Below are positions 1,914 through 22,813 of a stretch of 40,632 nucleotides of DNA, one piece after another. Both the position numbers and the translations under genes were made by a program. The notes under the pieces were generated by a model, which did no database searches, was not told the origin of the DNA, and saw nothing but the letters and a program-made list of their open reading frames with translations. The first letter of the stretch is position 1. Each line of letters begins with the position of its first letter. Source of the DNA: a virus; IMG/VR virus record IMGVR_UViG_3300021963_008590, positions 1 through 40,632 of that record; one strand, written 5' to 3'.

Positions 1914-2780
1914 ATGAGTTACGATTTAGTTATAATTAATGGTGATTCCTTTTCAGAGGGAAATGGTTTAACAAAGCAATTTGAAACATATAAAGATGAT
2001 TGTAATAATTATGATTTATGGTTAAAATTGAAAAATCATTCTCAATCAGAAGTGTTTTTAGACCGCTCTTTTAGTTGGGGAGTTAAAATTGCAGAACTAC
2101 TAAATGTTCCTGTTCTTAATATATCCAGAAGTGGTTCATCTAATAAATCTATTTTAAGGAGATGGTATTATCTTTTTAATGTTGGGCCTACAAAAAATGA
2201 TTCTCATAATTATGATTATAAAGCGTATGATGAACATTGGATTTTTTTAAATCCATCTACAAAGGAATTTATCCCATATGATAAAGTATCTTTTTTCAAA
2301 TTTAAAAATCCATTATGTATAACTCAATGGAGTAATTCATATAGAGGTGATATGACATATAAAAGTCTAACAACTACCCTTAATCCAGGATTATCCGATT
2401 TACAAACACTAAAAAATTGGATAGATGAATATAAAATTCCACTGGATATAAACAAATTCACTCATTTCTTTGAGTATTATAATAATTTAGTGAATACTGA
2501 ATATTTAGTAAACTATGAAAATTTAAATATTTTGTTAGCGTTTAAAGGTTTAATGGATGCTGTAAATTTTAAAGGATTCTCAATTTATCATAGAATGGCA
2601 AATACAATGGAATTTAAGTATCATAAATTAGTAAGCAATTTATTAAATGTTGATGAAACTAAAAAAATAGAAAGTAACACATATACATTAAAAGATGTTG
2701 GTATAGAAAACTTGCATTATAGTTTAGAAGGGCATGAATATTTTGGAGAAAATATTTTAAATTTAATAAAAGAATGTTAG
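1914..2780 (+). CDS. SGNH/GDSL-type hydrolase-like protein
   Basis: A 288-residue protein with the SGNH block I motif NGDSFSEG near residues 9-16 (nucleophile Ser). The block II/III region is NISRSGSSNKS, and a C-terminal block V-like segment ENLHYSLEGHEYFG supplies a probable catalytic His. SGNH enzymes are esterases or acyltransferases acting on O-acetyl or other acyl groups of carbohydrates. It is one of at least six SGNH-type proteins plus one GSCFA protein in this window, which suggests acyl-ester metabolism on glycans. Its 3' end overlaps the next gene by 7 bases. The substrate is unknown. Confidence 0.7.
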   Translation: MSYDLVIINGDSFSEGNGLTKQFETYKDDCNNYDLWLKLKNHSQSEVFLDRSFSWGVKIAELLNVPVLNISRSGSSNKSILRRWYYLFNVGPTKNDSHNYDYKAYDEHWIFLNPSTKEFIPYDKVSFFKFKNPLCITQWSNSYRGDMTYKSLTTTLNPGLSDLQTLKNWIDEYKIPLDINKFTHFFEYYNNLVNTEYLVNYENLNILLAFKGLMDAVNFKGFSIYHRMANTMEFKYHKLVSNLLNVDETKKIESNTYTLKDVGIENLHYSLEGHEYFGENILNLIKEC

Positions 2781-3898
2781 AAGGAATACATATTGATTTT
2801 AATTTAAACTTAGAGATAGGCCCGTGTGGTGTAAATGCCAGAGTACCAACTGGTGTAACAATAGATAAAAAATTTGATACTTCCTTAAGATTAATTGAGA
2901 TACCAAAAGGATTTGATACATTTAATTTCTTTAGTGATCAATATAAAGATAGATTTACTTTAAATTTCAAAAAACTATTAGGCGATGGTTTATCAAAATA
3001 TAAATTTCTAATATCATTTTATAGAGAAGAAGCATCTACTACAAAGGATAAAATAAATTTTTTTACTAATTTATTTAAAGATGGGAAGATTTTATTTATA
3101 ACAACTAATATAGAGGAATATCAAGAGAATAAAGTTTTATTTCTGAATAATTCGGAGTGGATATACGATGATGTCTATGTTCGTAATTTTTTTGATTTTT
3201 GGAAATATCTTAAAAGACAAGATATAGGAACTATAAAGAAAAAATATATGTTTCTAATTAATCACTATTCTGATATTAGATTCGAAATATTAAAATTTTT
3301 ATACAAAAATAATAAACAAAATGAAGGTAATATATCTTTCAATCTAATTGATTTTGAAGGATGTAAATTAGATAAAAGTAAGATATTAAGTGAAATAAAT
3401 GAATTTAATATTGATTATCCATCTTATTACGATACATATCCTACTTTATCACATTTGACAGATGATGTTCGTTTTCAAAAAACATTAATTGGAATTAATC
3501 ACGTTGGAACACTCCCCCATTTCAATTATAGAATTTATTTAGAATCGTATTTTGAAATCATAACTGAAACTGCTCCTCATTTAGTGATGGAAGGTACTCA
3601 TATATCTGAGAAGATACATAAACCACTGAGAACTGCTCTACCTTTTATGTATTATGGTAAACCAGAGGTTAAGGTATTTTTAGAAAGTATAGGAATGAGT
3701 TTCACATCTCCTATTTATTTTTTTGGATTAAATGAAGAAGAATACTTAAATCATTTGAATTTTTTGTTACAACAGGATTTCAATTGGTATAATTCAACCC
3801 AAATAAAATATTTAGATGAATACTTTAATAATATGGATATTTGGATAAAATTTATTAAAACAAATAATGATCAACTTTTAAAATTTATGTACCCATGA
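2774..3898 (+). CDS. Glycosyltransferase-like protein (EK-motif family, paralogue 1)
   Basis: A 374-residue protein with an ill-defined N-terminal half. The C-terminal half carries ISEKIHKPLRTALPFMYYG followed by a segment where a Gly residue precedes a hydrophobic strand. The same arrangement, [ST]EK-x3-[PN]-x4-P-[FA], recurs in the proteins at 4892, 21869 and 39112, so these are diverged paralogues. The arrangement resembles the nucleotide-sugar-binding C-terminal region of GT10 fucosyltransferases and exostosin-like enzymes (SEK...AL..G.VP). The glycosyltransferase call is therefore an inference from one motif and the context. It sits directly upstream of the APS kinase gene, with a 4-base overlap. 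Confidence 0.5.
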   Translation: MLEGIHIDFNLNLEIGPCGVNARVPTGVTIDKKFDTSLRLIEIPKGFDTFNFFSDQYKDRFTLNFKKLLGDGLSKYKFLISFYREEASTTKDKINFFTNLFKDGKILFITTNIEEYQENKVLFLNNSEWIYDDVYVRNFFDFWKYLKRQDIGTIKKKYMFLINHYSDIRFEILKFLYKNNKQNEGNISFNLIDFEGCKLDKSKILSEINEFNIDYPSYYDTYPTLSHLTDDVRFQKTLIGINHVGTLPHFNYRIYLESYFEIITETAPHLVMEGTHISEKIHKPLRTALPFMYYGKPEVKVFLESIGMSFTSPIYFFGLNEEEYLNHLNFLLQQDFNWYNSTQIKYLDEYFNNMDIWIKFIKTNNDQLLKFMYP

Positions 3899-4326
3899 TA
3901 TATTGGTTTACTGGACAACCAGGAGCAGGGAAGACTACGTTGGCTAATTGGATGTTAGCGCATTTTCCAAATGATTCTATCATAGTAGATGGTGATGATA
4001 TAAGAGCCATTTATGATAATAAAGATTATTCGGAAGTGGGTAGAAGGAAAAATATAGAACTTGCACAAAATTTGGCAAGATTCTTACATCACAAAGGATT
4101 TAAAGTTATGGTTTCTTTAGTATCACCTTATCGTGATCAAAGGGAATCTTTTAAAACCGAAATGGGTAATAACATAAAGGAAATATATGTACACACTCAA
4201 AGTGAAAGAGGAAGAGAAGGATATCATGTTAGTAATTATGAATCTCCTTTAGAGAATTTTATTGATTTAGATACAACAAGTGAAGACGAATTTACAACAT
4301 TTCAAAAATTAAAATCACTAATATGA
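3895..4326 (+). CDS. cysC: Adenylylsulfate (APS) kinase, shortened
   Basis: APS kinase phosphorylates adenylylsulfate to PAPS, the universal sulfate donor. The 143-residue product has Walker A GQPGAGKTT at residues 7-15, DGDDIR at about 34-39, an RR-N-E-AQ-LARFL helix and the highly diagnostic VSLVSPYRDQRES segment. A compressed C-terminal part retains YESPLENFIDLDT. Typical CysC proteins have around 200 residues. The segment that normally forms the APS-binding lid (KGLY-x-KAR-x-G, FTG) appears reduced here, so activity needs testing. It overlaps its neighbours by 4 bases on each side and is followed by a nucleotidyltransferase and a DUF2061 protein. Two sulfotransferase-like proteins encoded 10 kb downstream could use its product. 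Confidence 0.85.
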   Translation: MIYWFTGQPGAGKTTLANWMLAHFPNDSIIVDGDDIRAIYDNKDYSEVGRRKNIELAQNLARFLHHKGFKVMVSLVSPYRDQRESFKTEMGNNIKEIYVHTQSERGREGYHVSNYESPLENFIDLDTTSEDEFTTFQKLKSLI

Positions 4327-4697
4327 AAAAATACGCATTATTCATCGGAAGATGGCAAACATGGCACGCAGGACATGAATGGTTAATCCGCCAACAATTG
4401 GATAAAGGAAAAAATGTATGGGTAGCAATCAGAGATGTGGAAGTGGACGAAAATAATCCAAAATCTGCACAACAAGTTTTAAAAGATTTATCAAATGAAC
4501 CATTCTTTCAGCAAAATTGGGATAAATTATATGTATCAATTATACCTGATATTGAATCGGTAAACTATGGAAGAGGTGTTGGGTATGATGTTATCCATCA
4601 TCATCCACCTGCAGATGTTGAATTAATTAGTGGAACAAAAATTAGAAAAGGGTATATGGATACCGATGGAGATGTAATAGAGTATGCCATTGATTAA
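4323..4697 (+). CDS. HxGH-type nucleotidyltransferase (adenylyl/cytidylyl transferase)
   Basis: A compact 124-residue member of the HxGH nucleotidyltransferase superfamily. The N-terminal FIGRWQTWHAGHEWLI contains the HxGH ATP/CTP-binding motif at about residues 16-19. The C-terminal ELISGTKIRKG matches the second signature (IS[ST]T.[IL]R). The family includes NMN adenylyltransferase, phosphopantetheine adenylyltransferase, glycerol-3-phosphate cytidylyltransferase and ATP sulfurylase, whose motif is also SGTxxR. Lying between cysC and a DUF2061 gene, it might make APS from sulfate, but the size is far below that of known ATP sulfurylases. That role is only a hypothesis. The start codon overlaps the cysC stop. 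Confidence 0.7.
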   Translation: MKKYALFIGRWQTWHAGHEWLIRQQLDKGKNVWVAIRDVEVDENNPKSAQQVLKDLSNEPFFQQNWDKLYVSIIPDIESVNYGRGVGYDVIHHHPPADVELISGTKIRKGYMDTDGDVIEYAID

Positions 4698-4905
4698 AAG
4701 ACATATAGCCAAAACTATTTCGTATCGCGTTGTAAGTACTTTAATAGGATTTCTTATAATGTGGTGGGTGAGTGGGTCTATTAAAGTAGGCGCAGCTTTT
4801 GGGGTAGCAGAGTTGATTTATAAACCTATTCAATATTATCTACACGAAAGAGTTTGGTACAAATGGATTAGATATGGGTTAAAGGAAAAAAATGAAACAA
4901 AATGA
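4684..4905 (+). CDS. DUF2061 small membrane protein
   Basis: A 73-residue protein with the DUF2061 pattern: KTISYRVVSTLIGFLIMWWVSG near the N-terminus, a second hydrophobic/amphipathic stretch, and the terminal signature YKPIQYYLHERVWYKW. One clear transmembrane segment covers about residues 17-33, and a second weaker one follows. DUF2061 proteins are of unknown biochemical function, but in bacteria they often sit beside sulfate-activation genes (cysC, cysD, cysN), which matches this location. The gene overlaps the nucleotidyltransferase by 14 bases and the next gene by 14 bases, so it is firmly embedded in the block. Confidence 0.8.
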   Translation: MPLIKRHIAKTISYRVVSTLIGFLIMWWVSGSIKVGAAFGVAELIYKPIQYYLHERVWYKWIRYGLKEKNETK

Positions 4906-6049
4906 TATTCAATTTTGGGTAAGTGATGTATCAGGAGATAGTGGTATTAGATTTTTATTTGAAAGTGTATATCCAAATACTTTCAAAAAAATAGAATATG
5001 ATACTATATCACATTCTAATATTAATATTTTAGTTTTTAAGTGGGAGAGTAAGTTTGCAATAAAACCATCTTTCCAAACACATACAAATGAATTTTTAGA
5101 ATTAGTAAAGAAATTAAATAATCTTAATTTTTATTTTTTAGCCGATCATTCAACTGAGGCGGAATCTGTTATAAATGAATTAGAAAAAATTGATTTTTTA
5201 AACAAGTTAAAATCAGTTGGAATCCCATCTAGCAAAATTTTAATGGCTCAAAATAATTCATTTGATTTTGAATCAATGATTACAAAGATAGGTAATTTCC
5301 AATTAAAAACATTTTATTTTCCACATTTTTTAATTGCAACTCCCTATTATATGAATCAATATGTGGAGGAGGTGCATAATCACTTTCAGATGCCTAAATC
5401 TAAAGATTTTTTGTGTCTTAATAGAAGAGTATCAACTCATAAATATAATTTACTAAAAAGATTATGGGAAAGGGGTTTATTAGAAAATACGATGTGGAGT
5501 TGGGTTGCTACTATGTTCGATGATAAGCTGATAAATGAGGAATTTAAGAATAAGAATGGATTAAATAGAGGTAATTCAATTCAATTAGAAGGAGATGTTA
5601 TGTATGGGAGTGGTTTGCAATTTGCAGATGAATACCTTTATACAATAAATCCTATGTGGTATTATAGTTCCAAAGTAGATATTGTGAATGAAACTCACTT
5701 AAATAAAAAAGATGTAATCCATCACACCGAAAAAACTTTTAAACCTATGTACTTAGGTATGCCGTTTATTACCAATGCAACTAAAAACCATCTACATTGT
5801 TTAGGGAAGTTAGGGTTTAAAACGTTTGAATCGGTAATAGATGAATCATATAATTCAACTTCTAATATAGATTCCCTAATCGATTCCGCTCTTATGTTAC
5901 TTGAAAAGTGGGATGTAGGAGAAGTCAAGGATATATGTGAATTTAATAAAGAAAAAATAAGTAATTTTGATACATACCGTACAATTTTGTTGAATTTTTT
6001 CGTAAAACCATTGGAAGGGTATTGCAAATCTAAATTTAGTTTGATATAG
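4892..6049 (+). CDS. Glycosyltransferase-like protein (EK-motif family, paralogue 2)
   Basis: A 385-residue protein and the clearest member of the local EK-motif family. After CLNRRVSTHKYNLLKRL (about residues 170-187) comes HHTEKTFKPMYLGMPFI and then LGKLGFKTF. The EK-x3-KP-x3-GMPF region is reminiscent of the donor-binding part of GT10 and exostosin-type glycosyltransferases, and the neighbouring sugar-modification genes agree with this. The N-terminal third appears to be a separate Rossmann-like half. There is no signal peptide or membrane segment, so it would act in the cytosol. A 74-base gap before the next gene contains no obvious terminator hairpin. The call is motif based and moderate. 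Confidence 0.55.
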   Translation: MKQNDIQFWVSDVSGDSGIRFLFESVYPNTFKKIEYDTISHSNINILVFKWESKFAIKPSFQTHTNEFLELVKKLNNLNFYFLADHSTEAESVINELEKIDFLNKLKSVGIPSSKILMAQNNSFDFESMITKIGNFQLKTFYFPHFLIATPYYMNQYVEEVHNHFQMPKSKDFLCLNRRVSTHKYNLLKRLWERGLLENTMWSWVATMFDDKLINEEFKNKNGLNRGNSIQLEGDVMYGSGLQFADEYLYTINPMWYYSSKVDIVNETHLNKKDVIHHTEKTFKPMYLGMPFITNATKNHLHCLGKLGFKTFESVIDESYNSTSNIDSLIDSALMLLEKWDVGEVKDICEFNKEKISNFDTYRTILLNFFVKPLEGYCKSKFSLI

Positions 6050-6088
6050 TATTTTTCAAAGGATAATCCATATTATTTATGTTTTTCA

Positions 6089-6096
6089 TATTTATA
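6089..6096 (+). promoter_or_regulatory. Possible late promoter element (TATTTATA)
   Basis: TATTTATA lies 28 bases before the start codon of the large Hint protein. It resembles the T4-type late promoter core TATAAATA that gp55-family sigma factors recognise, and such a sigma factor is encoded at 35933-36649. The same octamer occurs before the gene at 33345. In DNA this AT-rich the match may be chance. Confidence 0.25.
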
Positions 6097-6123
6097 GACA
6101 TACAAAAAGAAACAAATTAAAAA

Positions 6124-8838
6124 ATGAAAGGAACGCTATTTTCTGCGGATTTTATTGAAGACCAAAATGGTGATTTTAGGTTATTAGAGGTTAATACTGA
6201 TACTAATATACCCAAAAGTAGATTGGGGTATATGAATTACTCTGAATTGATTGATGTATTATCTGATAATAATATTACAAAGTTTACTGTAATAAACAAA
6301 CCAAATATACACAGTGACTGGGTTCTACACCTATCTTCTTCTTTAAATGCAAGTGCATCATTTATTGATACATTTACTATAATTAACGAAAACTTTAATA
6401 CTATTTACCCCGCTTCGGTGACTGATAGTGAGGATACGTTTATACTAAGAATGGCGTATGATGAAGCAGCTATTTTTGATTCTGAATATGCGAAGGGTAA
6501 ATTAAACTTATTAAAATTATTTGCAGATAATGATGATAGTGGATCAGTAGTAGAGTTTTATCATTCTTCTTCAGGTGAAGGATTCTATGATTTAATAACT
6601 CCTTCGTTCAACGCATCTAATCTTCCAGATGTAGTAGTAAAACCTATTGCAGAAGCTGGAACGGTAACATCATTTTATAAAATAGGGTCTGAGGTTGAAG
6701 GAGAATCTAATGATAATAGATTAACTGAATTTATTTCAGTTATTTCGGATGAAAATAATATGATACAAAAATATCATATAAATCCTACTTCAATAACCGA
6801 TAATGTTTTTAGCATTCGTAGTTTTGGGATTATATATGGTTCAAACTTAGATTTAATAAATTTAGCAGAATATAAATCAGATGCGATATTTTCTTTACCA
6901 ATTGGATCTATACACAGTCCAGTAAGATATGTAAGTGAAATTGGCAAAGAACACTATTATGAATTTGCTACAAACTTAGTTAAAAATGAATTTGGGTTTG
7001 ATGGCATTTTAGGAACACATTTAGTTATAAAAGCGGATGATACTGAAGTGGAAATTCAATCTCTTTCAGTAGGAGACGTGTTAAAATCATATCAAGTAAG
7101 TGGATGGAGTAGTGATGAAACTATAAATTATCTAAACTACTACATTGATGGGGATACATTACCTAGTGGCTCATTATTGACAACCTCAAGTGTAATATAC
7201 AAAAATGAAAAAGCGTTGGTTAATAAAACTTTAATTAACATATCAGTTAATAATAACGAAGATTCATTATTTGTTGCACCACAAAAAACTTTCTTAGTAT
7301 ATGATAGTGGTAGCAATTTAATTACTTGGAAAACCGCACAGACAATTGAACCGAATAATCATTTTTTAATTGATTATGATGGTTCAAAGGCAGAAGTAAC
7401 TTCAAATGAATTATATGTAACCGATGATCCTGATTTAAATTTAATTGAAATAGATGTAGAGGATACCGATACATACATTATCGCAGGAACTACTCCTATA
7501 AATTCATTCGTAACTCACAACGCACCTTGTTTTACCGGAGATACTAAAATTTCTCTATCAAATGGTGATATAAAAAATATAGAAGATGTAGTACCTGGAG
7601 ATGAAATTTGTACCTATGATTTAGGAAAAAATGAAATAGTATTCTGTCAGGTTGTGAATGTATTTTCTAAATTAGTCAATAAAATTGTACACTATCAGTT
7701 TGATAACGGAGAATCTTTAAAATGTACAATTGACCATCCGATATATGTAGTTGAAAAAGGTTGGTGTTCATTTGATAATAATGAATCTAATAGCAAGTAT
7801 AGCCTAGATAAACCTGTACAAAGTATAAAAGTTGGAGATATAGTTAAATTACAAAACGGAGAAAGTAAACTATTAAAAGTTGAAGTTATAGAAGGAGATG
7901 TAAAGGTTTATAACCTAATTGATATAGAAAAAAATCATAATTTCTTTGCAAACAACATTTTAGTACATAACAGATTCTGTTTTGTAGCTGGAACTGAAGT
8001 TGAATTAGAAAATGGTGAAGTGAAAGTTATAGAAGATATTCAAATAGGAGATTTAGTATTAACATACAATGAAAGTACTAACCAACAGGAAGTTAATAAA
8101 GTTAGCGGAGTATTTTCCCCTAATCACAATGATTTAGTAAAATATTACTTATCAAATGGAACAACTTTAACTTCTACTTATGACCACCCATATTATGTAA
8201 ATGGATTAGAATTAGCTTCATTTAGCCCATCATTGACAACTGAAAGATATAAATTGGAAAAAGAAGTAGTTCAGATAAAGGAGGGGGATGTTGTTAATTT
8301 ATCGGATTTATCAAGTTCTACGATTGAAAAAATAGAAGTAATCGTTGATTCTGAATTAACAAAAACTTATATTATAACTGTTGAAAATAATCATAACTTT
8401 TATGCAAATAAAGTTTTAGTTCACAATAAGTGTTTCGTAGCTGGAACTGATATTACACTTGAAGATGGTACACTTAAACCGATTGAGGAAATCAAAATAG
8501 GTGATAAGGTATTAACATTCAATGAAGTTATGTTGATAAACGAAAGTGGTACAGTGGGAGATTTAAAGAAACACATTGTTAATGAAACAGTTATTATAAA
8601 TTGCTTATGTAATAAAGAAACCAGATGTACAAAAGAGCATCCTTTCTTTATAATTGATAAGGGGTGGGTAAACGCATCAGATGTTAAAGCTGGTGATTTC
8701 GTAAAAACAATTGATGGTAAATGTGAAATACTAAGCGTAGAGTTTAAACAGGAAGATATTGAAGTATATAATCTATTAGATGTTTCGGATAATCACAATT
8801 TTTACGCAAATTCAATTTTAGTACATAATAAACTTTAA
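6124..8838 (+). CDS. Large protein with four tandem Hint (intein-like) domains
   Basis: A 904-residue protein. Residues 1 to about 290 form an unrecognised domain containing FRLLEVNTDT and FILRMAYDEAAIFD segments, probably a virion-associated domain. Four Hint modules follow: about 293-466, 469-616, 619-768 and 770-902. Modules 2-4 each start with Cys (CFTGDT, CFVAGT, CFVAGT), hold a block-B TxxH motif (TIDH, TYDH, TKEH) and end in a strand plus His-Asn (ILVHN, VLVHN, ILVHN). Module 1 keeps the GTHLVI...SVGD fold and the final His-Asn, but has lost Cys1 and the block-B His. Residues after His-Asn are Ala, Arg, Lys and Lys, so normal splicing to a Cys/Ser/Thr is not expected. Autocleavage as in bacterial intein-like (BIL) domains is more likely. 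Linkers between modules are only 1-2 residues. Confidence 0.8.
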   Translation: MKGTLFSADFIEDQNGDFRLLEVNTDTNIPKSRLGYMNYSELIDVLSDNNITKFTVINKPNIHSDWVLHLSSSLNASASFIDTFTIINENFNTIYPASVTDSEDTFILRMAYDEAAIFDSEYAKGKLNLLKLFADNDDSGSVVEFYHSSSGEGFYDLITPSFNASNLPDVVVKPIAEAGTVTSFYKIGSEVEGESNDNRLTEFISVISDENNMIQKYHINPTSITDNVFSIRSFGIIYGSNLDLINLAEYKSDAIFSLPIGSIHSPVRYVSEIGKEHYYEFATNLVKNEFGFDGILGTHLVIKADDTEVEIQSLSVGDVLKSYQVSGWSSDETINYLNYYIDGDTLPSGSLLTTSSVIYKNEKALVNKTLINISVNNNEDSLFVAPQKTFLVYDSGSNLITWKTAQTIEPNNHFLIDYDGSKAEVTSNELYVTDDPDLNLIEIDVEDTDTYIIAGTTPINSFVTHNAPCFTGDTKISLSNGDIKNIEDVVPGDEICTYDLGKNEIVFCQVVNVFSKLVNKIVHYQFDNGESLKCTIDHPIYVVEKGWCSFDNNESNSKYSLDKPVQSIKVGDIVKLQNGESKLLKVEVIEGDVKVYNLIDIEKNHNFFANNILVHNRFCFVAGTEVELENGEVKVIEDIQIGDLVLTYNESTNQQEVNKVSGVFSPNHNDLVKYYLSNGTTLTSTYDHPYYVNGLELASFSPSLTTERYKLEKEVVQIKEGDVVNLSDLSSSTIEKIEVIVDSELTKTYIITVENNHNFYANKVLVHNKCFVAGTDITLEDGTLKPIEEIKIGDKVLTFNEVMLINESGTVGDLKKHIVNETVIINCLCNKETRCTKEHPFFIIDKGWVNASDVKAGDFVKTIDGKCEILSVEFKQEDIEVYNLLDVSDNHNFYANSILVHNKL
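7000..8829 (+). repeat. Fourfold tandem repeat of Hint-domain coding units
   Basis: The coding sequence for the four Hint modules forms a diverged tandem repeat with unit lengths of roughly 400-520 bases. The units are most alike at their ends: the codons for CF-[TV]-[AG]-G-[TD] at each start, and for NHNF-[FY]-AN-x-[IV]-LVHN at each end. They differ strongly in the middle, so duplication is old or the units have been selected to diverge. Confidence 0.75.
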
Positions 8839-8842
8839 TAAA

Positions 8843-8986
8843 ATGAATAAACCTACAAAATATAAATCTATACAAGTATCTGAGATTAACAATAAACCTG
8901 TTACTCTACTTACTTCTGCTGAAAAATTAAAAACTTCAGCGATTTTAACAAAATTAATTCAATATATCAAGCAGAAACATTCTTAA
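8843..8986 (+). CDS. Very small protein (47 residues)
   Basis: A short open frame starts 4 bases after the stop of the Hint protein and encodes 47 residues, Lys and Thr rich, with a C-terminal amphipathic helix (AILTKLIQYIKQKHS). It has the usual A-rich leader (ACTTTAATAAAATG) and fills the gap between its neighbours, so it is probably real. No function can be proposed. Confidence 0.45.
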   Translation: MNKPTKYKSIQVSEINNKPVTLLTSAEKLKTSAILTKLIQYIKQKHS

Positions 8987-9007
8987 TTTTGCTTGAGAAT
9001 AAAGGTT

Positions 9008-9481
9008 ATGAATGCATTCGAATATATAAATAAATTCGTAGTATCAGTATTAAAGCCAAGCCGAATAAATGGGGTTGGCTTTTTTGCTGTCAGAGATATT
9101 AAAAAAGGAGATGCTATATTTGAAGTGTGGAAGGGTGAATCAGGAATATATTCTATAACAATTGACGAGCTTAATTTATTACCAGATGATTTGAAAAAAA
9201 ATATTTATGAAACATTTGACAATAGATTTTTATATATCAATAGAGAAGGGGAAGAAATTTTTATTCAAAAAGAAATTGGAAAAATTTTCTTTCCATTAGA
9301 AAGGGGATTTCATTGGATTTATATTTGGCCTAAGATGTTTATTAATAGTGGGTTGAATAAGGCAAATATAGATACGAATAATTTTATAAATCCAATTGCG
9401 ATAAGAGATATAAAAAAAGGAGAAGAATTACTGGCTAATTACGGAACGAACTTTAATGTTCCTCCAAAAAATTTTATATAA
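9008..9481 (+). CDS. SET-domain protein 1
   Basis: A 157-residue SET-domain protein. The domain opens with KPSRINGVGFFAVRDIKKGDAIF (SET-N, residues about 17-39 with the G-x-G SAM loop). It has FINSGLNKAN in place of the NHS-x-x-PN motif and ends with IRDIKKGEELLANYG, whose Tyr is the catalytic position. SET proteins are SAM-dependent lysine methyltransferases. I start at ATG 9008 because it follows AAAGGTT and gives a natural N-terminus; an upstream TTG at 8993 is in frame but less likely. The next gene starts at the last base of the stop, and that gene is a paralogue. Confidence 0.75.
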   Translation: MNAFEYINKFVVSVLKPSRINGVGFFAVRDIKKGDAIFEVWKGESGIYSITIDELNLLPDDLKKNIYETFDNRFLYINREGEEIFIQKEIGKIFFPLERGFHWIYIWPKMFINSGLNKANIDTNNFINPIAIRDIKKGEELLANYGTNFNVPPKNFI

Positions 9482-9915
9482 TGGAAGTAATTAATTATAT
9501 AAAAGATTGTGTAAATATTAAACTTAAGCCTAGCCCGATAAACGGAGTTGGAGTTTTTTCACTTCGATTAATTAAAAAAGGTGAAATTCTTTTTAAGGAA
9601 TGGGATGGGGATAGTAAACTATACTCACTTAAACAAAGTGATATTAATTCATTAAATGATGAAACCAAACAACATATTTTAGATATGTGGAGCTTTGAAA
9701 AAATGGGGGATGGTTATGAATTAATTGGATACTTAAATAAGGGATGCCATTGGATATATAAGACTCCTATACACTGGGTAAATAGCTGTGGATGGGATGA
9801 AGAACCGAATGTGGATAGAAATACTTTGGAGGCGCTGAGGGATATTAAGCAGGGTGAAGAAATACTTTTCAAATATGGAAAATATAACAAATATACTAAA
9901 TCAGGAATCATATAA
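9481..9915 (+). CDS. SET-domain protein 2
   Basis: A 144-residue paralogue of the preceding SET protein. KPSPINGVGVFSLRLIKKGEILF forms the SET-N part, WVNSCGWDEEPNV is the NHS-x-x-PN-like motif (a better match than in its neighbour) and LRDIKQGEEILFKYG is the C-terminal Tyr motif. Compact bacterial and viral SET enzymes methylate protein lysines, and the chlorovirus enzyme vSET is a small viral example. A phage pair in tandem suggests duplication and possible heterodimer or distinct targets. Its 3' end overlaps the next gene by about 41 bases. Confidence 0.75.
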   Translation: MEVINYIKDCVNIKLKPSPINGVGVFSLRLIKKGEILFKEWDGDSKLYSLKQSDINSLNDETKQHILDMWSFEKMGDGYELIGYLNKGCHWIYKTPIHWVNSCGWDEEPNVDRNTLEALRDIKQGEEILFKYGKYNKYTKSGII

Positions 9916-10549
9916 CAATGGTTTGATTTCATATGATTTATCCAAAAAGTATAAATTACATAAAGCGAGATATAATGGAGCTTATGCAAAAGATGATTTT
10001 AAACTTAGAATAGATCAAAATAAGAAACTATATTTTTATGAAGAAGATAGGCAATCTAATTCTCTTTTGACTTTTTTAGAATGTAAAGAATTTTTTGATA
10101 TAGATAACTTTGTTTTAGATATTTTTAATAAAAATTTTGGGATAGATACTAATGTATATTCAAAATCAAGTTGGATATACACACAAGTCCAATCATTTAA
10201 TATGAATTGGATGCATACTCACAAGTACATTTTTTCATCAAATAAAACATCTCTCAAAACCCAATATACCTTTGTATTTTACATACAAATTCCTAAAGAT
10301 TTAGAGAGAGGAGAGGGTAATATTATTTTTAAAACAGAAGATAAAAAACTTTTTTCATATACCCCATCGGAAAATGATGTATTAATATTTTCAGGTGATT
10401 TAGAGCATATGGCAGTTCCAAATCAAAGTGCAATTGAGGATAGGTTAGTATATGCTAGTAATTTAAGTTTTAGTTTAGAAGAAGAAACTACTTTCGATAC
10501 ACCTATTAAATTTAAGAATATAATATATGATAAAAAAATAGTAAAATGA
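9875..10549 (+). CDS. 2OG-Fe(II) oxygenase-like protein (Oxy_5 type)
   Basis: A 224-residue protein when started at ATG 9875; a GTG at 9854 is in frame but lies deep in the upstream gene. The C-terminal half shows WMHTHKYIF (His114-x-His116), a double-stranded beta-helix strand TQYTFVFYIQIP, then LIFSGDLEHMAVPN (His168) and DRLVYASNLSF (Arg180). This is the layout of Fe(II)/2-oxoglutarate dioxygenases of the 2OG-FeII_Oxy_5 type, which often use HxH rather than HxD. Such enzymes hydroxylate amino acids, peptides or other small molecules. It opens a run of related oxygenase genes and is coupled to the next gene by an ATGA overlap. Confidence 0.6.
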   Translation: MENITNILNQESYNNGLISYDLSKKYKLHKARYNGAYAKDDFKLRIDQNKKLYFYEEDRQSNSLLTFLECKEFFDIDNFVLDIFNKNFGIDTNVYSKSSWIYTQVQSFNMNWMHTHKYIFSSNKTSLKTQYTFVFYIQIPKDLERGEGNIIFKTEDKKLFSYTPSENDVLIFSGDLEHMAVPNQSAIEDRLVYASNLSFSLEEETTFDTPIKFKNIIYDKKIVK

Positions 10550-11049
10550 TTAGAAGCTATTTAAATATTGATAATACTACATTAGGTGAGCAACTTTTTA
10601 AAAATAAACAAATAACAAAAGTTTCACCTTCCAATTCGTATGAGATGCTTTTGACTAGTAATCAAATTAAAGAAATAGTATCTAATGTAATTCATTTAAT
10701 AGAATCTCATTATAATCAAAAAATAGAGATTTACATTAAAAATTTATGGGGGTATATTCAGAATAACGATGAATTACAAAATTTGACTATAAATCCTTTT
10801 ATATATAATGAAGGTATATCAATAAAACCAAAGTGGTCTTTTTTATATTTTGTTGAAACCGATACTTCAAAAATAAAATTTAATATAAATTCAGATTTTT
10901 TAGAAATCAATTTTAAAAAAGGAGAGTTGGTTGTCTTTGAATCAGATTCTTTTGTTAAAGATATATCAAATGATACTAACAGAATTGTATTAGTAGGCTC
11001 TATCACAAATAGTTTATCTAATACGAATCAAAACAAAAGTTTAATATGA
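10546..11049 (+). CDS. Decayed 2OG oxygenase-like paralogue
   Basis: A 167-residue protein that aligns by eye with the preceding oxygenase. NLWGYIQNND corresponds to SWIYTQVQSF, KWSFLYFVETDT to TFVFYIQIPKD, INFKKGELVVFES to the SENDVLIFSG strand, and NRIVLVGSITNSLS to DRLVYASNLSFS. The iron-binding His positions are missing: the HTH site is replaced by a Thr/Asn-containing loop, and the distal His site by SFVKDIS. The Arg that binds 2-oxoglutarate may remain. It is therefore likely a non-catalytic relative, perhaps a structural partner. It overlaps both neighbours by 4 bases (ATGA). Confidence 0.5.
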   Translation: MIRSYLNIDNTTLGEQLFKNKQITKVSPSNSYEMLLTSNQIKEIVSNVIHLIESHYNQKIEIYIKNLWGYIQNNDELQNLTINPFIYNEGISIKPKWSFLYFVETDTSKIKFNINSDFLEINFKKGELVVFESDSFVKDISNDTNRIVLVGSITNSLSNTNQNKSLI

Positions 11050-12017
11050 AACACGTTGATAAAAGTGATATAGGGGATTCGTTCTTTAGAGGTGAAAATG
11101 GTGTGCAATTTAATCCATATAAAGGAGATTTTAGAAATCCAATTTTTTTACAAGAATTTATCTTAAAGGGGTGGATTCCGGAAAAACACTTTATACAAAA
11201 ACATACAAATATAACTGCGTTTGGTAGTTGTTTCGTTGGCCATATTATACGAATGCTACAAACAAACAATTTTAAATTAACAACCGATTTTGCTCCTGAA
11301 ATTCATATTTCTAATATGGGAGAGGGGTTAGCAAATGTTAAATCAATATATCAACAATTTGAATGGGTTTTGGAGAATAAACCTATACCAGAAGGATTAT
11401 GGTATGGGGCAAACGTAGAGGAATATGGGATAGATGAGAATATTAGGCTTAAGACAAAGGAATTATTTTTAAATACTGAAGTTTTTGTATTTTCAATAGG
11501 GTTATCAGAGGTTTGGGAAGAAATTGAAAGTGGGGAAACTTTTTGGAAAGCAGTTCCTACATATCGATACGATCCAGCTAAACACCGATTTAGAATACTT
11601 TCTTTAACTGAAACTAAAGATACCTTTTTAAAATTGTATAATATTATCAAAAAATATATACCAAATTGTAAAGTCATATTTACGGTATCACCTACTCCTA
11701 TGGCAGCAACTTTTCGTGATATGTCGTGTGTTACCGCTAATTTAACATCAAAAGCTATTATAAAGGCTTCTCTTGATGAATTTATGAGAGAAAATACCGA
11801 TACAATGAATTCATTATTTTATTTCCCATCATACGAAATAGTAAATTTATTTTTTGATAAATTTTTAAACGATAATAGGCATATAAAAGATGAAATTATA
11901 AAATTAGTAATGAGAGTTTTTGAAATTCTATATTGTGATACCAATATTGGTTGGGAATATGTTGAAGATTTATTTAAAAAAGAATTAGAAAATAATAGGC
12001 TAACAAAATTTATTTAG
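11046..12017 (+). CDS. GSCFA-family SGNH hydrolase-like protein
   Basis: A 323-residue protein of the GSCFA family, a branch of the SGNH hydrolases common in Bacteroidota and in marine phages. The defining motif appears as TAFGSCFVGHI at about residues 57-67. Further family features are SIGLSEVWEE (the catalytic Asn is usual here but the position reads Ser/Glu) and KVIFTVSPTPMAATF with the conserved SP-P segment. GSCFA proteins are thought to act on acylated or modified glycans, but no reaction is established. Coupled to both neighbours (ATGA upstream, TAG then ATG one base downstream). Confidence 0.75.
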   Translation: MKHVDKSDIGDSFFRGENGVQFNPYKGDFRNPIFLQEFILKGWIPEKHFIQKHTNITAFGSCFVGHIIRMLQTNNFKLTTDFAPEIHISNMGEGLANVKSIYQQFEWVLENKPIPEGLWYGANVEEYGIDENIRLKTKELFLNTEVFVFSIGLSEVWEEIESGETFWKAVPTYRYDPAKHRFRILSLTETKDTFLKLYNIIKKYIPNCKVIFTVSPTPMAATFRDMSCVTANLTSKAIIKASLDEFMRENTDTMNSLFYFPSYEIVNLFFDKFLNDNRHIKDEIIKLVMRVFEILYCDTNIGWEYVEDLFKKELENNRLTKFI

Positions 12018-12018
12018 T

Positions 12019-12495
12019 ATGGAATCTGTATTATTTACAAAAGATGAGTGTTCTATTATATTAAATGGTATTGAGAATAATGAAGAATATAGTCTATTAA
12101 ATATTGACGATAGAAAGTATGAAGAGTGGTTGATAGTAGATAAATCTATTTTAGATATGGTTTTAAATAAACTGAAAAGATTTGGTATTACTTCAATAAA
12201 AGAAGGTAGGATATTGAAGTACGATAAGGGTTGTTTTTTTAAAAAACACGTTGATACTTGGGAAAAATACCCACATCGATATAAAACTATTATAGTACAA
12301 TTATCTAATGGGGATAGTTATGAGGGGGGTAACATGATGTATGGAGATGTGATTTTGGGTAAAGAAATTGGAAATACTGTAATGTTCGAAGGAACTTTAC
12401 CACATAGTATGGAAGAAATTACAAGTGGAATACGATATGCATTTGTTATATGGTTAGAGAGGAATGATTTTGGTATAAATAAAACATTATTATGA
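12019..12495 (+). CDS. Prolyl-4-hydroxylase-like 2OG-Fe(II) oxygenase A
   Basis: A 158-residue oxygenase with the complete catalytic set: His77-x-Asp79 in KKHVDTW, distal His129 in TLPHSMEEI and Arg139 in SGIRYAFVIWL, with the family strand DSYEGGNMMY between them. It is the P4H-like type that hydroxylates peptidyl residues or free amino acids using Fe(II), O2 and 2-oxoglutarate. This is the first of four consecutive single-domain oxygenases; a fifth lies one gene further on. The short N-terminal part (FTKDECSIIL) is the usual substrate-side helix. It ends in an ATGA overlap with oxygenase B. Confidence 0.8.
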   Translation: MESVLFTKDECSIILNGIENNEEYSLLNIDDRKYEEWLIVDKSILDMVLNKLKRFGITSIKEGRILKYDKGCFFKKHVDTWEKYPHRYKTIIVQLSNGDSYEGGNMMYGDVILGKEIGNTVMFEGTLPHSMEEITSGIRYAFVIWLERNDFGINKTLL

Positions 12496-12986
12496 TACAT
12501 TTTACTAAAAATGAATGTGATTCTATTATAAATCTTTCAAATACTTTACAAAAAACCGAAAGAAATGAATTTCCCAGGCCTATTAGTTATGATTTTTATT
12601 CAATTGGATGTAATAATGAAACAAAGTGGATATTTGATAGATTGGATTCATATTTTACCGAAACTACAGGAATAGAAGTTGTTAAGAGTTTAGATGCTGT
12701 TCACTTATTTGATTATTCAGTAGGAGATAGATTTGGTAGACATAGAGATATATATTATGTGAATCAAATTCATAACATAGGAGTTTGCTTAAATGAGGAT
12801 TATGAAGGTGGTGATTTTGTTTTATATGAACCCCAATATGTGGTTCTTCCTAAAAAAACAGGTCAAATTTATACATTTAAGCATTCATTGGAACATGAGG
12901 TTTTAGAAGTTACACATGGTAATAGGTGGAGTTTAATTGGGTTCTATTTCTATGAACATTTAGATTTAAAAAAACAACTTTTGTGA
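12492..12986 (+). CDS. Prolyl-4-hydroxylase-like 2OG-Fe(II) oxygenase B
   Basis: A 164-residue protein with His84-x-Asp86 in GRHRDIYY, the strand DYEGGDFVLYE, distal His135 in SLEHEVLEV and Arg145 in GNRWSLIGFYF. The His-to-Arg spacing of ten residues is the same as in oxygenases A, C, D and E. Sequence identity between the copies is clearly low outside the motifs, so they are unlikely to be redundant. The N-terminus again begins FTKNECDSII, like oxygenase A. The substrate is unknown. The stop TGA overlaps the next ATG as TGATG. Confidence 0.8.
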   Translation: MIHFTKNECDSIINLSNTLQKTERNEFPRPISYDFYSIGCNNETKWIFDRLDSYFTETTGIEVVKSLDAVHLFDYSVGDRFGRHRDIYYVNQIHNIGVCLNEDYEGGDFVLYEPQYVVLPKKTGQIYTFKHSLEHEVLEVTHGNRWSLIGFYFYEHLDLKKQLL

Positions 12987-13513
12987 TGATTATAAAATCG
13001 GATAATTTAATTAGCGAAGATGATTTATCATTTATTGATAAGTTATCATATAAAGTTGCTAGGGTAGAAAGAGATGATAGGAGATATTCATCCCACCGTC
13101 TTAGTAATGAAGAAAAAAGTGTATTTCTAAAAAAATTACTTATTTGGGTTGAAAATAAATTAGATATAAAGTTTAGGAGATATGATTTAAGTTTATTTGA
13201 TACTTTTTTTATAAATTATAATGTTGGTGATTTTTTTTTAAAACATAGAGATGATACATTAATGTGGGCAAAAGGATCGAAAAGAAAATATGTATCGGGA
13301 TTCCACATAAATGAGGATTATGAAGGCGGTGATTTTGTTGTATATGATTATGATGATAATTTTAAAATAATGGAAAAAAGAAAAGGTTATCCATATATTT
13401 TTGAATCAAAAATGTATCATGAAGTAAAACCAGTATTATTAGGAGTTAGAAAAAGTATTGTAATTCACATTGATACCGAATCAATTCTAACATCAGAAAA
13501 ACAAATTATATAA
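12986..13513 (+). CDS. Prolyl-4-hydroxylase-like 2OG-Fe(II) oxygenase C
   Basis: A 175-residue oxygenase when started at ATG 12986; a GTG at 12983 would add one Met. The motifs are His87-x-Asp89 in LKHRDDTL, EDYEGGDFVVYD, distal His145 in KMYHEVKPV and Arg155 in GVRKSIVIHI. Preceding the iron site is FFINYNVGDFF, the usual strand that lines the active site. The set of residues is intact, so it should be active on some hydroxylatable substrate. Overlaps oxygenase B by one base of the stop and is separated from D by a single base. Confidence 0.8.
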   Translation: MIIKSDNLISEDDLSFIDKLSYKVARVERDDRRYSSHRLSNEEKSVFLKKLLIWVENKLDIKFRRYDLSLFDTFFINYNVGDFFLKHRDDTLMWAKGSKRKYVSGFHINEDYEGGDFVVYDYDDNFKIMEKRKGYPYIFESKMYHEVKPVLLGVRKSIVIHIDTESILTSEKQII

Positions 13514-13514
13514 A

Positions 13515-13982
13515 ATGGATAAAGAAATTAGAATTTATAGGGAACTTTTAACACCAGAAGAGTGTAAAGAAATATTACTTTTCTCAAAAGAACATTTTGA
13601 AGAAGATAAAAGAGCTAGATACGGTTGGCATGCAAGAACTAACAGAAATCTACATTTTGAAAATCGAATTAAAGAAAAAATAACACCGATAAGTCCCTTA
13701 AATCCTTTTTATATTTCGTGGATAAATGTAAGTGAATATGAGGATAATAGATCATTAGATTTACATATAGATGAAAGAAGTGATTATACATTATGTATAA
13801 CACTAACGGATGAGTATGAAGGTGGAAATTTTATTATAGAGAATGAAAAATATAAAACTCAAAAAGGTGATTGCATCTTATTTGATGGACATCATTTGAA
13901 GCATGGTGTTGAGCCAGTGACCAAAGGTTATAGAGCTTCATTAAACATATGGATTAAAAAGGGTAACAAATCATTCCTATGA
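13515..13982 (+). CDS. Prolyl-4-hydroxylase-like 2OG-Fe(II) oxygenase D
   Basis: A 155-residue oxygenase with His84-x-Asp86 in DLHIDERSDY, TDEYEGGNFII, a His-rich distal site DGHHLKHGVEPV (His130 by spacing) and Arg140 in KGYRASLNIWI. The N-terminus contains LTPEECKEILL, similar in position to the N-terminal helices of A and B. It is followed, with a 4-base ATGA overlap, by a sulfotransferase-like gene. The oxygenase-sulfotransferase order is then repeated by the next gene pair, which hints that the two activities act on the same substrate. Confidence 0.8.
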   Translation: MDKEIRIYRELLTPEECKEILLFSKEHFEEDKRARYGWHARTNRNLHFENRIKEKITPISPLNPFYISWINVSEYEDNRSLDLHIDERSDYTLCITLTDEYEGGNFIIENEKYKTQKGDCILFDGHHLKHGVEPVTKGYRASLNIWIKKGNKSFL

Positions 13983-14506
13983 AAGTTTTAATAATAGCAT
14001 TGGCGAGAACAGGTTCATCTAATTTATTATTTAAACTCGCAGAAAAAAATAACTTAAAGCCAATATTTGAGCCATTTAGGGGAGAAATTGAAAATGAATA
14101 CTTCGATGGAATTAATAGATGGGTATATAATGAATCGGAGGATAATATTGTCGTGAAAACAATAATACATCATCACAGAGATAATTTAAAATTGGCAGAG
14201 AAATTTGATAAGGTTATACTCCTATCTAGAAGAGATCTAAAACAATGTGCCGAAAGTACAATATATCATTTTAAAAATCGAACTGATGGATTTAAATCTT
14301 GGATGGAATATTATTATGAAGGTATATCAGATAAGGAATTGGAAGATTGTTTAGAATTTGTTAAAGAAACCCATAATCAATTAGTGGCACTAAGTGAGAA
14401 ATTAGGAGTTCCAATTACTTATTATGAAGATTTATATGATTTGAATTCTCCTAAGAGATTGAGGAAGTTCAATAAAAATGAAATATCAAAAAATAAAATT
14501 TTATAA
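13979..14506 (+). CDS. Sulfotransferase-like protein 1
   Basis: A 175-residue protein with the PAPS-binding pattern of sulfotransferases. The N-terminal strand-loop MKVLIIALARTGSSNLL is the 5'-phosphosulfate loop, a P-loop variant at residues 1-17. VILLSRRDLKQCAESTIYHF at about 78-97 corresponds to the 3'-phosphate-binding strand and helix (R-D...S). A late segment ITYYEDLYD matches the usual YEDL strand end. It is short compared with typical sulfotransferases (250-300 residues), as is common in phages. It would be cytosolic and use PAPS, for which a phage APS kinase is encoded at 3895-4326. Acceptor unknown. Confidence 0.7.
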   Translation: MKVLIIALARTGSSNLLFKLAEKNNLKPIFEPFRGEIENEYFDGINRWVYNESEDNIVVKTIIHHHRDNLKLAEKFDKVILLSRRDLKQCAESTIYHFKNRTDGFKSWMEYYYEGISDKELEDCLEFVKETHNQLVALSEKLGVPITYYEDLYDLNSPKRLRKFNKNEISKNKIL

Positions 14507-15006
14507 TGGAAATAGGGATATTAGATAATACTGAATATAATTTTATAATAAATTCATTGAATGCTAATATGGGTATGAGTGAAAGTGAATACGCTACTCT
14601 TAAAAAAAAGCATCCATATGCCGTTATGAGAGATGATAATGCTCTTATTATCTCATCTATGAAACACTATGGTTTGCATGATAAAGAGTTGAACGCATTT
14701 TTACTTAAAAAATTTGGAAAAGAAAATTTTAAAATTGATTTTTTTTATGAATTAATTTATAATGAAGGAAATTATACAAATCCACATTTGGATAAAAAAA
14801 CGGTATTACAAACTACATTGATACTCTTAGAAGATAAATTTACCGGAGGAGATTTGATAATCGATGATAACATTATATCTTTTAATAAAAAAGGTATGTT
14901 TATAAATTTCGAAGGTTTTAAAGAAAGACATTCTGTATCTAAAATTGAAAGTGGTGTTAGAAAGGTATTAGTAATAATGTTTGATAAAAAAGAAACTTTG
15001 ATATGA
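14506..15006 (+). CDS. Prolyl-4-hydroxylase-like 2OG-Fe(II) oxygenase E
   Basis: A 166-residue oxygenase with His94-x-Asp96 in TNPHLDKKTV, DKFTGGDLIID in place of the EGG strand, distal His142 in KERHSVSKI and Arg152 in SGVRKVLVIMF. The TAATG junction with the upstream sulfotransferase and the ATGA junction with the downstream one place it between two sulfotransferase-like genes. All catalytic residues are present. Together with A-D, the Oxy_5-type copy at 9875 and the distant copy at 26495, this makes seven oxygenases with plausible active sites in the window. Confidence 0.8.
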   Translation: MEIGILDNTEYNFIINSLNANMGMSESEYATLKKKHPYAVMRDDNALIISSMKHYGLHDKELNAFLLKKFGKENFKIDFFYELIYNEGNYTNPHLDKKTVLQTTLILLEDKFTGGDLIIDDNIISFNKKGMFINFEGFKERHSVSKIESGVRKVLVIMFDKKETLI

Positions 15007-15692
15007 ATATTTTGTTAGTTGGAATAGGTAGATGTGGGACGATATCGTTATCCGATGCTTTCCATAATCAAAAATATCATATTATTCCAGAACCATTTAG
15101 TATGGATACCACATATACAGGTGTTAATGAAAAAAAATTTCAATTTGGTTGGTGGAATAGAAATAAAGAAGAACAACTTAATTTTTTTCTTGATAAAGAA
15201 AAAAATACTTTGGTTAAAACATTGGTAGGGCAAACTCCAAAACGATATCATGGTTTTAAAAATTGGCAATCATTTATATTTGAGTTTGTAAAAAATTTTG
15301 ATAAAGTACTTTGGATTGATAGAAAAAATTTAGATGAGCATTTTTTAAGTATAGTTAATTTAACATATAAAGTTAATAATGAATCAAATGGAGATGTAAG
15401 GCCGTGGTACAAAAAATGGTACACAACCGATATACCTCTTGAAGTTATAAATGAGTTTGAAAAAAGTGGATTACGAGAAAAACTAATTCATGATAAAGAG
15501 ATATTGCATGAAACTATTAAAAAGTTAGAAGGAAATATTATCTGGTATGAAGACCTGTATGGGGAAGATAGGAATAAATCTTTAGGAATTATTAATTCAT
15601 GGGGCATAAATAATATTGATTCTGAAAAATTAAATGAGTATCTACACCCATCAAACAGACTAAAACAAAGTACCAAAAAACAAATAATATAA
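15003..15692 (+). CDS. Sulfotransferase-like protein 2
   Basis: A 229-residue protein with NILLVGIGRCGTISLSDAF at the N-terminus (G-x-G-R-x-G-T, the 5'-phosphosulfate loop) and VLWIDRKNLDEHFLSIVNL as the 3'-phosphate region. It ends with NIIWYEDLYGED, matching the ITYYEDLYD segment of sulfotransferase 1. It is a diverged paralogue of that protein. Residues GFKNWQSFIFEF and the Trp-rich FGWWNRN segment probably form the acceptor side. The presence of two different sulfotransferases next to hydroxylases suggests sulfation of newly made hydroxyls, which is an inference. Coupled to the next gene through TAATG. Confidence 0.7.
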   Translation: MNILLVGIGRCGTISLSDAFHNQKYHIIPEPFSMDTTYTGVNEKKFQFGWWNRNKEEQLNFFLDKEKNTLVKTLVGQTPKRYHGFKNWQSFIFEFVKNFDKVLWIDRKNLDEHFLSIVNLTYKVNNESNGDVRPWYKKWYTTDIPLEVINEFEKSGLREKLIHDKEILHETIKKLEGNIIWYEDLYGEDRNKSLGIINSWGINNIDSEKLNEYLHPSNRLKQSTKKQII

Positions 15693-21869: not shown

Positions 21870-22813
21870 TGGTTATTAGGCATTACATAAATTTAGAAAC
21901 AACTGAATTTAGGGTAGTTAATTTAAATTTTGCAATCTATAAATTTTCAGAGTTTAAAGAATTAGTTGAAATATCGGATAAAAAAATCCTTTTAATACAG
22001 GATGACTTTGAAATACTTCCCATATTCAATGATTCAAATGATCCTATAAGAAATGAATGTAATGAATTTATAAAAAATAATTTTGACAAAATTATATTAT
22101 CTGATCAAATTAATTTTCATATAGAAGGTTCTAAATATTTCATATCTAACGGATTTAAAACCCTAAAGATATATCCATATTGCGAAAAGTTCTTTAATAT
22201 GGATTTTAATAAAAATAGATTTAGAGGTCTTTTTTTATCAAACAACGTTAAACACTTTAGAATAAAAATTTTAAATTTTTTATTAAAAAATGATTTTAAT
22301 GAAAAAATTGCGGTGAAATTCAACGCAACCAACTATGATTTATATAAATCAAATAATTTTGAATTTAATATAAACTCCGATATTGATATACCTTATCTTA
22401 ATCAATCATTTTTAAATAATTTTAACGAAATAAAAGAGCCATTATATGATGATGGTATAAACTTATGTGATAAGAACATATCAGTTAAAACATTTGAATA
22501 TTTGGAAAATTGTAAAATTCATATTGGGAGTGAAACTATGGATATGTGTTTTTGTTTTAGTGAAAAAACTTTCCAACCACTTTTAATGGGGTGTATCCCT
22601 GCTCTATTATATTCATTTGATAATCTAATATCTTTAAAAAAATTAGGATTTTGTTTGGATTCTTTTTACTACAAAAACGAAGAGGAATATTTTAAAAAAT
22701 TGTTTGAATTATTGGAAATGACGGATTCTGACTTTCATGATTATTACAATTACCATTTAGAAGGGTTAATCCATAATCATAATCTGTTAAAAAATTTCAT
22801 ATTGAATTATTAA
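21869..22813 (+). CDS. Glycosyltransferase-like protein (EK-motif family, paralogue 3)
   Basis: A 314-residue member of the local EK-motif family. HIGSETMDMCFCFSEKTFQPLLMGCIPALL is followed by LKKLGFCLDSFYY, the same order as in paralogue 2 (EKTFKP-x4-MP, LGKLGFKTF). The likely function is glycosyl transfer, by analogy with GT10/exostosin donor motifs. It has a shorter N-terminal half than its relatives. This is the last gene of the long polycistron. The intergenic stretch after it contains a promoter for the next transcription unit. Confidence 0.55.
   Translation: MVIRHYINLETTEFRVVNLNFAIYKFSEFKELVEISDKKILLIQDDFEILPIFNDSNDPIRNECNEFIKNNFDKIILSDQINFHIEGSKYFISNGFKTLKIYPYCEKFFNMDFNKNRFRGLFLSNNVKHFRIKILNFLLKNDFNEKIAVKFNATNYDLYKSNNFEFNINSDIDIPYLNQSFLNNFNEIKEPLYDDGINLCDKNISVKTFEYLENCKIHIGSETMDMCFCFSEKTFQPLLMGCIPALLYSFDNLISLKKLGFCLDSFYYKNEEEYFKKLFELLEMTDSDFHDYYNYHLEGLIHNHNLLKNFILNY

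Follow-up and report, generated by a model that had tools for sequence, protein, structure and literature searches.

What would an aquatic virus of bacteria do with a gene of the adenosine 5'-phosphosulfate (APS) kinase family that overlaps the gene of a very small HxGH nucleotidyltransferase (NTase), which in turn overlaps the gene of a DUF2061 membrane protein? This arrangement is found in the IMG/VR virus record IMGVR_UViG_3300021963_008590, a fragment without stated completeness that was analysed as one 40,632-base stretch (the window), and whose genes are named here by their start positions. The initial annotation had proposed that genes 3895 (kinase), 4323 (NTase) and 4684 (DUF2061), together with genes 13979 and 15003, represent synthesis and use of 3'-phosphoadenosine 5'-phosphosulfate (PAPS) in one phage genome. 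All five open reading frames (ORFs) were found where it had placed them, and the overlapping block of kinase, NTase and DUF2061 genes was borne out (Table 1). On balance, we lean towards a sulfation module carried by the virus, with the NTase forming APS, and we hold with greater confidence that the kinase and the sulfotransferases alone make up such a module.

In the proposed pathway, the 124-residue NTase would join the AMP of ATP to sulfate to yield APS, acting as a minimal ATP sulfurylase, and the short kinase, which belongs to the APS kinase family, would phosphorylate the 3'-OH of APS to yield PAPS. The two sulfotransferase-like proteins, one of which has a modelled sulfotransferase fold, may then pass the sulfuryl group to an acceptor, most probably a glycan or a small molecule made by the surrounding gene cluster. 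Candidate roles of the DUF2061 protein are sulfate supply and membrane anchoring of the pathway.

The kinase, the nucleotidyltransferase and the sulfotransferase-like proteins

Genes 2774, 3895, 4323, 4684 and 4892 follow one another head to tail with overlaps of 4-14 bases each, and because of these end-to-start overlaps the five genes are probably co-translated. Conservation across many independent contigs excludes that the five ORFs of the initial annotation are chance ORFs.

The 3895 product scores 59.5 bits against PF01583 (APS_kinase, cut-off 21.1) in a Pfam profile search, in which the runner-up family is Zeta_toxin with 28.3 bits, and a sequence comparison with PDB ranks APS kinases as its best matches. 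It contains a P-loop (GQPGAGKTT) and the motifs DGDDIR, GRRKN and SPYR. With 17 homologues aligned, G12, K13, D32, G33, D34, R37, R50, N53 and P78 are invariant, and the motifs DGDxxR, GRxxN and SPYR are kept across all of them. On these motifs and profiles, the 3895 protein is predicted to belong to the APS kinase family as a divergent form that lacks the lid.

The 4323 product had been described as an HxGH nucleotidyltransferase with an SGTxxR motif, and this description is correct: WHAGH, within the longer motif GRWQTWHAGH, and ISGTKIR are both present. G9, R10, Q12, H15, G17, H18, NP, GRxxGY and ISxTxxR are invariant, and Arg37 nearly so, across its relatives from viruses, bacteria and archaea. 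The NTase is a member of the HxGH nucleotidyltransferase superfamily that resembles NadM and other nicotinamide mononucleotide (NMN) adenylyltransferases (NMNATs), a fold that alone does not set the substrate.

Genes 13979 and 15003 had been credited with PAPS-binding loops. The 13979 protein contains the motifs ALARTGSSNL ... LLSRRDLKQCAES ... YYEDLY, and the top PDB match of its AlphaFold2 (AF2) model (predicted local distance difference test score, pLDDT, 83.2) is the Stf0 sulfotransferase 1tex (E = 3.1e-4, probability 1.00), with other sulfotransferases also within the top 20 fold matches. An alignment of the family of both proteins displays the 5'-phosphosulfate-binding (PSB) loop and the YED motif, with R10, G12, R84 and S93 invariant, and by these shared motifs the 15003 protein is a putative sulfotransferase-like protein as well. 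The loops are thus supported by shared motifs and, for the 13979 model, by a Stf0-like fold, but neither protein matches a Pfam sulfotransferase family at curated thresholds. PF13469 matches weakly in 10 of the 19 aligned homologues of 13979 (best E = 2.9e-4), and when PDB was searched with a profile of this sulfotransferase alignment, nothing significant came back, the fold search alone giving matches.

Sulfotransferase homologues were found in 10 of the 16 virus records that bear the kinase-NTase pair. As a baseline, viruses were picked by a marker gene unrelated to the pair; this gene lies at 35933-36649 of the window and, judged by eye, probably encodes a late sigma factor. In their local loci, a sulfotransferase is present in 5 of 23 with kinase or NTase versus 0 of 57 without (p = 0.0014), and over whole records, homologues are present in 7 of 8 with NTase versus 0 of 6 without (p = 0.005); with some of the records being fragments and related, this co-occurrence is supportive, not conclusive. 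In another virus (L152), a sulfotransferase homologue similar to 15003 (8368-8991) lies between the NTase and DUF2061 genes.

Table 1. Genes of the window discussed in the text and the basis of their assignment
Feature	Position	Strand	Basis
Possible glycosyltransferase with EK..KP motif; gene overlaps the kinase start	2774..3898	+	Frame overlap; putative function
Short P-loop kinase (143 aa) of the APS kinase family, which would convert APS to PAPS	3895..4326	+	PF01583, PDB matches, motifs
Minimal HxGH/ISGTxxR NTase, 124 aa, candidate APS-forming enzyme	4323..4697	+	Motifs, profile, fold, gene context
DUF2061 small membrane protein	4684..4905	+	PF09834, 58.6 bits
Possible glycosyltransferase with TEKTFKP motif; gene overlaps the DUF2061 end	4892..6049	+	Frame overlap; putative function
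Sulfotransferase-like protein 1, 175 aa, Stf0-like fold	13979..14506	+	AF2 model, alignment motifs, PF13469 matches of homologues
Sulfotransferase-like protein 2, 229 aa	15003..15692	+	Alignment with invariant R10, G12, K60, R84, S93, YE
NodU/NolO-like carbamoyltransferase, possible partner decorating the same product	36651..38342	+	phrog_1601, E = 2.1e-110

Relatives of the pair and the possible source of APS

The NTase gene adjoins the kinase gene in all 114 fetched loci that hold the kinase, a set that was collected with exact peptides and is therefore biased to close relatives, and in which some loci overlap on one contig. Two large records (G004 and G005) have an NTase gene without a neighbouring kinase gene, and both encode the kinase elsewhere. 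In two other records (G184 and G186), where neither NTase nor sulfotransferase was detected, the kinases (L356:7959-8345 and L359:16989-17375) are shortened and have lost the DGDxxR...GRxxN segment. Such a loss of the substrate segment is what a dependence of the kinase on the NTase would lead one to expect, and decay of the kinase after NTase loss is possible.

In Stenotrophomonas phages the kinase and the NTase are fused, and phrog_10255 ('kinase'), the sole good match to both halves of the pair in a PHROG scan, proved to be this fused type. As a distant branch with a modified substrate motif, the fused type was left out of the case for sulfate. That branch (L155:5602-6336, L156:5590-6318 and L212:4075-4873), which has an altered WDF substrate motif and whose two members are separate genes in the Marinimicrobia genome G165, may have a different function. 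A collection of cultured phages contained five weak matches to the kinase and nothing stronger, no relative of 13979 and a single, distant DUF2061.

A genome scan with the NTase profile identified 20 loci, mostly of marine Marinimicrobia single-cell genomes, with others in Marinoscillum, Flavobacteriales, a gammaproteobacterium and a marine group III (MGIII) archaeon. Kinase and NTase genes are adjacent in most of these 20 loci; in Marinimicrobia, Flavobacteriales and MGIII archaea the pair is located on the chromosome, and several of the chromosomal pairs sit within polysaccharide synthesis/export loci. Locus L167 has, in the slot of the short kinase, a canonical CysC of full length (236.6 bits against PF01583, positions 2-151 of 152), and the stop codon of its gene directly adjoins the start of the NTase gene. 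A tree groups this NTase, with moderate support, with those that accompany short kinases and separates it from the fused type, which is distant. Marinoscillum has a canonical CysC next to a gene identified by eye as CysQ-like, and the NTase is encoded elsewhere in the genome. The partner activity of the NTase therefore appears to be that of APS kinase.

Where such a kinase would obtain its APS was addressed in 17 NTase-bearing bacterial and archaeal genomes, which were scanned for PF01747 (Sat), PF01507, APS kinase and PF13469. An APS-kinase-family gene is present in all 17 genomes and PF13469 sulfotransferases are present in 12, while Sat is found in one and absent from 16. A convincing CysD or CysH was found by the PF01507 scan in none of the 17, the weak matches obtained (33 bits or less) being to ORFs of 370-520 residues that appear unlike either protein. 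Of 149 genomes sampled from the phylum, 90 encode an APS kinase (E up to 1e-10), and among these Sat and CysD are both missing in 9 of 10 NTase genomes versus 5 of 80 others (Fisher p = 2.7e-8, which is not corrected for the tree and, with incomplete and related genomes, overstates independence). APS kinase without a known ATP sulfurylase recurs beyond this phylum, in Marinoscillum, Flavobacteriales and MGIII. As APS-kinase genomes with the NTase are mostly without Sat and CysD, the simplest interpretation is that APS comes from the NTase, and we propose the latter as a candidate APS-forming enzyme, a role that the initial annotation had not assigned.

Alternatively, the kinase may convert host-made APS to PAPS for the viral sulfotransferases, with an auxiliary or regulatory NTase. 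CysDN or Sat is common in host bacteria, the kinase and sulfotransferases are the best-supported parts of the system, and the NTase fold is NMNAT-like, all of which would suit a host supply. It would, however, leave an APS kinase without a source of APS in the genomes that have neither Sat nor CysD, and the NTase is the constant partner of the kinase in viruses and marine bacteria, even beside a canonical CysC. We consider a host supply of this kind rather unlikely.

The same scans bear on how viral cysC is usually read. It has been reported earlier as an unvalidated auxiliary gene of assimilatory sulfur metabolism (PMC8066274, PMC12713726); the kinase by itself is thus no novelty, and on this reading it would boost host sulfate reduction to cysteine. 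However, no PAPS reductase or CysD was found among the window proteins scanned, and the pair-bearing bacteria carry sulfotransferases instead of a convincing CysH or CysD of PF01507. Assimilatory sulfate reduction was rejected on these grounds, and we give it almost no credence.

A profile search with PF09834 agrees with the naming of the 4684 product as DUF2061. DUF2061 was detected in 124 of 156 loci, where its gene is normally directly downstream of that of the NTase. In the nod regions of two Mesorhizobium symbiotic plasmids, a DUF2061 gene (L217:4971-5204 and L371:3971-4204) lies between a sulfotransferase gene and cysD plus cysNC, and its product may serve Nod-factor sulfation. The link between DUF2061 and sulfation is independent of the viral loci, though not universal, as no sulfur genes were found at the DUF2061 loci of Bradyrhizobium and Haloterrigena.

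Several observations weigh against a sulfation module with the NTase as its APS-forming enzyme. The kinase scores 63.1 bits against TIGR00455, under the strict cut-off of 138.7, and when it is aligned to the canonical CysC of L167, the lid RDPKGxYKKARxGxIxxFTG is absent and a short stretch, GRExxxVxxYExP, stands where it would be. The APS kinase of the initial annotation consequently holds at the level of PF01583, but as a divergent, lid-less protein. An altered lid would also suit a pair that makes another activated nucleotide, in which the NTase would form a nucleoside monophosphate conjugate (NMP-X) and the kinase would add a 3'-phosphate for a non-sulfate decoration, comparable with the capsular phosphoramidate of Campylobacter; so would an NTase that falls in no known ATP sulfurylase family. 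APS kinase homologues with different nucleotide substrates do exist, cytidine diphosphoramidate kinase being related to APS kinase. The term cytidine diphosphoramidate kinase occurs in PMC11800397. The canonical CysC in the same slot, the co-occurrence of sulfotransferases and the DUF2061 link to cysD/cysNC nevertheless point to sulfate, and another nucleotide is distinctly improbable.

The NTase itself contributes further contrary points. Its profile matches the NMN adenylyltransferases 2qjt/2qjo in PDB (E about 6e-6), and the best Foldseek match of its AF2 model is likewise 2qjo (probability 1.00, E = 1.9e-3), with ATP sulfurylases ranking lower. The model is modest (pLDDT 70, falling to about 50 or less over much of the C-terminal third), and profile searches gave no match to PF01747 (Sat) or CysD (TIGR02039). 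On sequence grounds the NTase is outside the known ATP sulfurylase families, and it would work like an ATP sulfurylase rather than be a member of them. NadM and NMNAT being its best profile and fold matches, the NTase may instead be a viral NMN adenylyltransferase that acts with a NadR-like nucleoside kinase in nicotinamide adenine dinucleotide (NAD) salvage or counter-defence, and in phage Bhz60 a fused relative of the pair adjoins a NADAR gene. The kinase, however, resembles APS kinases and not NadR kinases, for which reason NadR-like NAD salvage was judged unlikely; the NTase is far shorter than NadM and scores 18.3 bits against the NadM family TIGR01527, whose curated cut-off is 181.2; and the gene context is one of APS kinase and sulfotransferases, with no NAD genes in the marine bacterial NTase loci examined. 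A role in NAD metabolism is in our judgement highly improbable.

The remaining contrary points concern sampling and context. The bacterial genomes are assemblies from single cells or metagenomes, incomplete and mostly of one clade, and the absence counts are not independent of each other; one genome (G021) has both the pair and Sat, and in the tenth NTase genome of the phylum sample (G165) the distant pair coexists with a Sat-APS kinase fusion. No sulfotransferase homologue was seen in the other 6 of the 16 pair-bearing virus records. The proposal that one phage genome both makes and uses PAPS gains partial support, from gene co-occurrence in other viruses, from the canonical CysC that replaces the short kinase beside the NTase and from the rhizobial DUF2061 genes between sulfotransferase and cysD/cysNC, but it is tempered by the divergence of the kinase and by the NMN adenylyltransferases that are the closest solved relatives of the NTase. 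We also put forward, tentatively and at slightly less than an even chance, that the NTase is a third, minimal ATP sulfurylase of about 115 residues, which would descend from an NMN-adenylyltransferase-like ancestor, be unrelated at the family level to Sat and CysDN, and form with the short kinase a two-gene PAPS synthase of marine bacteria, archaea and many viruses that serves solely for sulfating surface or secreted molecules.

Neighbouring genes and the possible acceptor

The gene content of the window suggests that a decorated glycan or small molecule is made. The two genes that flank and overlap the block may encode glycosyltransferases: the 2774 protein has no Pfam match and is 51% identical to a neighbour in loci L002-L006, and the 4892 protein has no convincing Pfam match. 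By eye, these two proteins share a [ST]EK..xP...P-type motif with the products of 21869-22813 and 39112-40251, also without convincing Pfam matches, and the four are possibly one glycosyltransferase-like family. A nodU homologue, the counterpart of the carbamoyltransferase gene of the window, is directly upstream of the kinase gene in the viral loci L016, L017, L023, L031 and L046. The window also encodes at least five 2-oxoglutarate (2OG)-Fe(II) oxygenases, a dTDP-4-dehydrorhamnose epimerase-like protein, GDSL proteins and a methyltransferase. About six small 2OG-Fe(II) oxygenase-like genes (PF13640) lie at 9854-15006, interleaved with sulfotransferase-like gene 13979.

Three other features of the window are recorded here. 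Genes for two small proteins lie in tandem at 8993-9915; the first product carries a SET domain (PF00856) and the second looks similar to it by eye, which is unusual for a phage. The 904-residue protein encoded at 6124-8838 contains three tandem, almost abutting Hint/intein-like modules, each with a C-F-x-[AG]-[GD]-T start and a V-H-N end by eye, and matches phrog_21587 and, weakly, a virion structural protein. A transfer-messenger RNA gene is located at 24431-24819, with the tag AEELSSFTFEDAMAFVGADYAVAA.

Comparison with known systems

The initial annotation knew of no well-described phage system of this kind, and our literature search agrees: in open-licence papers, a scope within which a report may be missed, we found neither the pair nor a minimal ATP sulfurylase described, and no account of a sulfation pathway in a phage or of a part for DUF2061 in sulfation. 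If the proposal is true, a gap in sulfate activation would be closed, as marine lineages seemingly unable to activate sulfate would do so by an overlooked enzyme of 115 residues; the widespread viral 'cysC' would be recast from amino-acid sulfur metabolism to sulfation; and viruses would chemically decorate their own or their host's surface with sulfate. Both the formation of APS by the NTase and viral sulfation can be tested with small proteins.

The viral cysC auxiliary genes of metagenome surveys are likewise APS-kinase-family genes in viruses, whereas the kinase gene described here belongs to a conserved pair with the NTase gene, accompanied by DUF2061 and co-occurring sulfotransferases. 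The viral sulfotransferase-like proteins share with Stf0 and Sulfotransfer_3 proteins the P-loop PAPS-binding motif, the Arg/Ser pair for the 3'-phosphate, the YED motif and a predicted Stf0-like fold, but are smaller (175 and 229 residues) and under the Pfam thresholds. With NadM-type NMN adenylyltransferases, the NTase has in common the GRxQxxHxGH and SxTxxR motifs and the overall fold; unlike them, it is shorter, possesses a GRxxGY motif and the nearly invariant Arg37, and is constantly paired with an APS-kinase-family enzyme. The closest parallels to the proposed pathway are CysDN/NodPQ with CysC and Sat with CysC (or PAPSS), where the same two steps, adenylylation of sulfate and 3'-phosphorylation by a P-loop enzyme of the APS kinase family, are encoded by adjacent or fused genes beside sulfotransferase genes, as in rhizobial nod regions. 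The system proposed here would differ from them in its adenylyltransferase, an HxGH protein of 112-124 residues that matches neither PF01747 nor CysD, in the shortened lid of its kinase and in being encoded by viruses.

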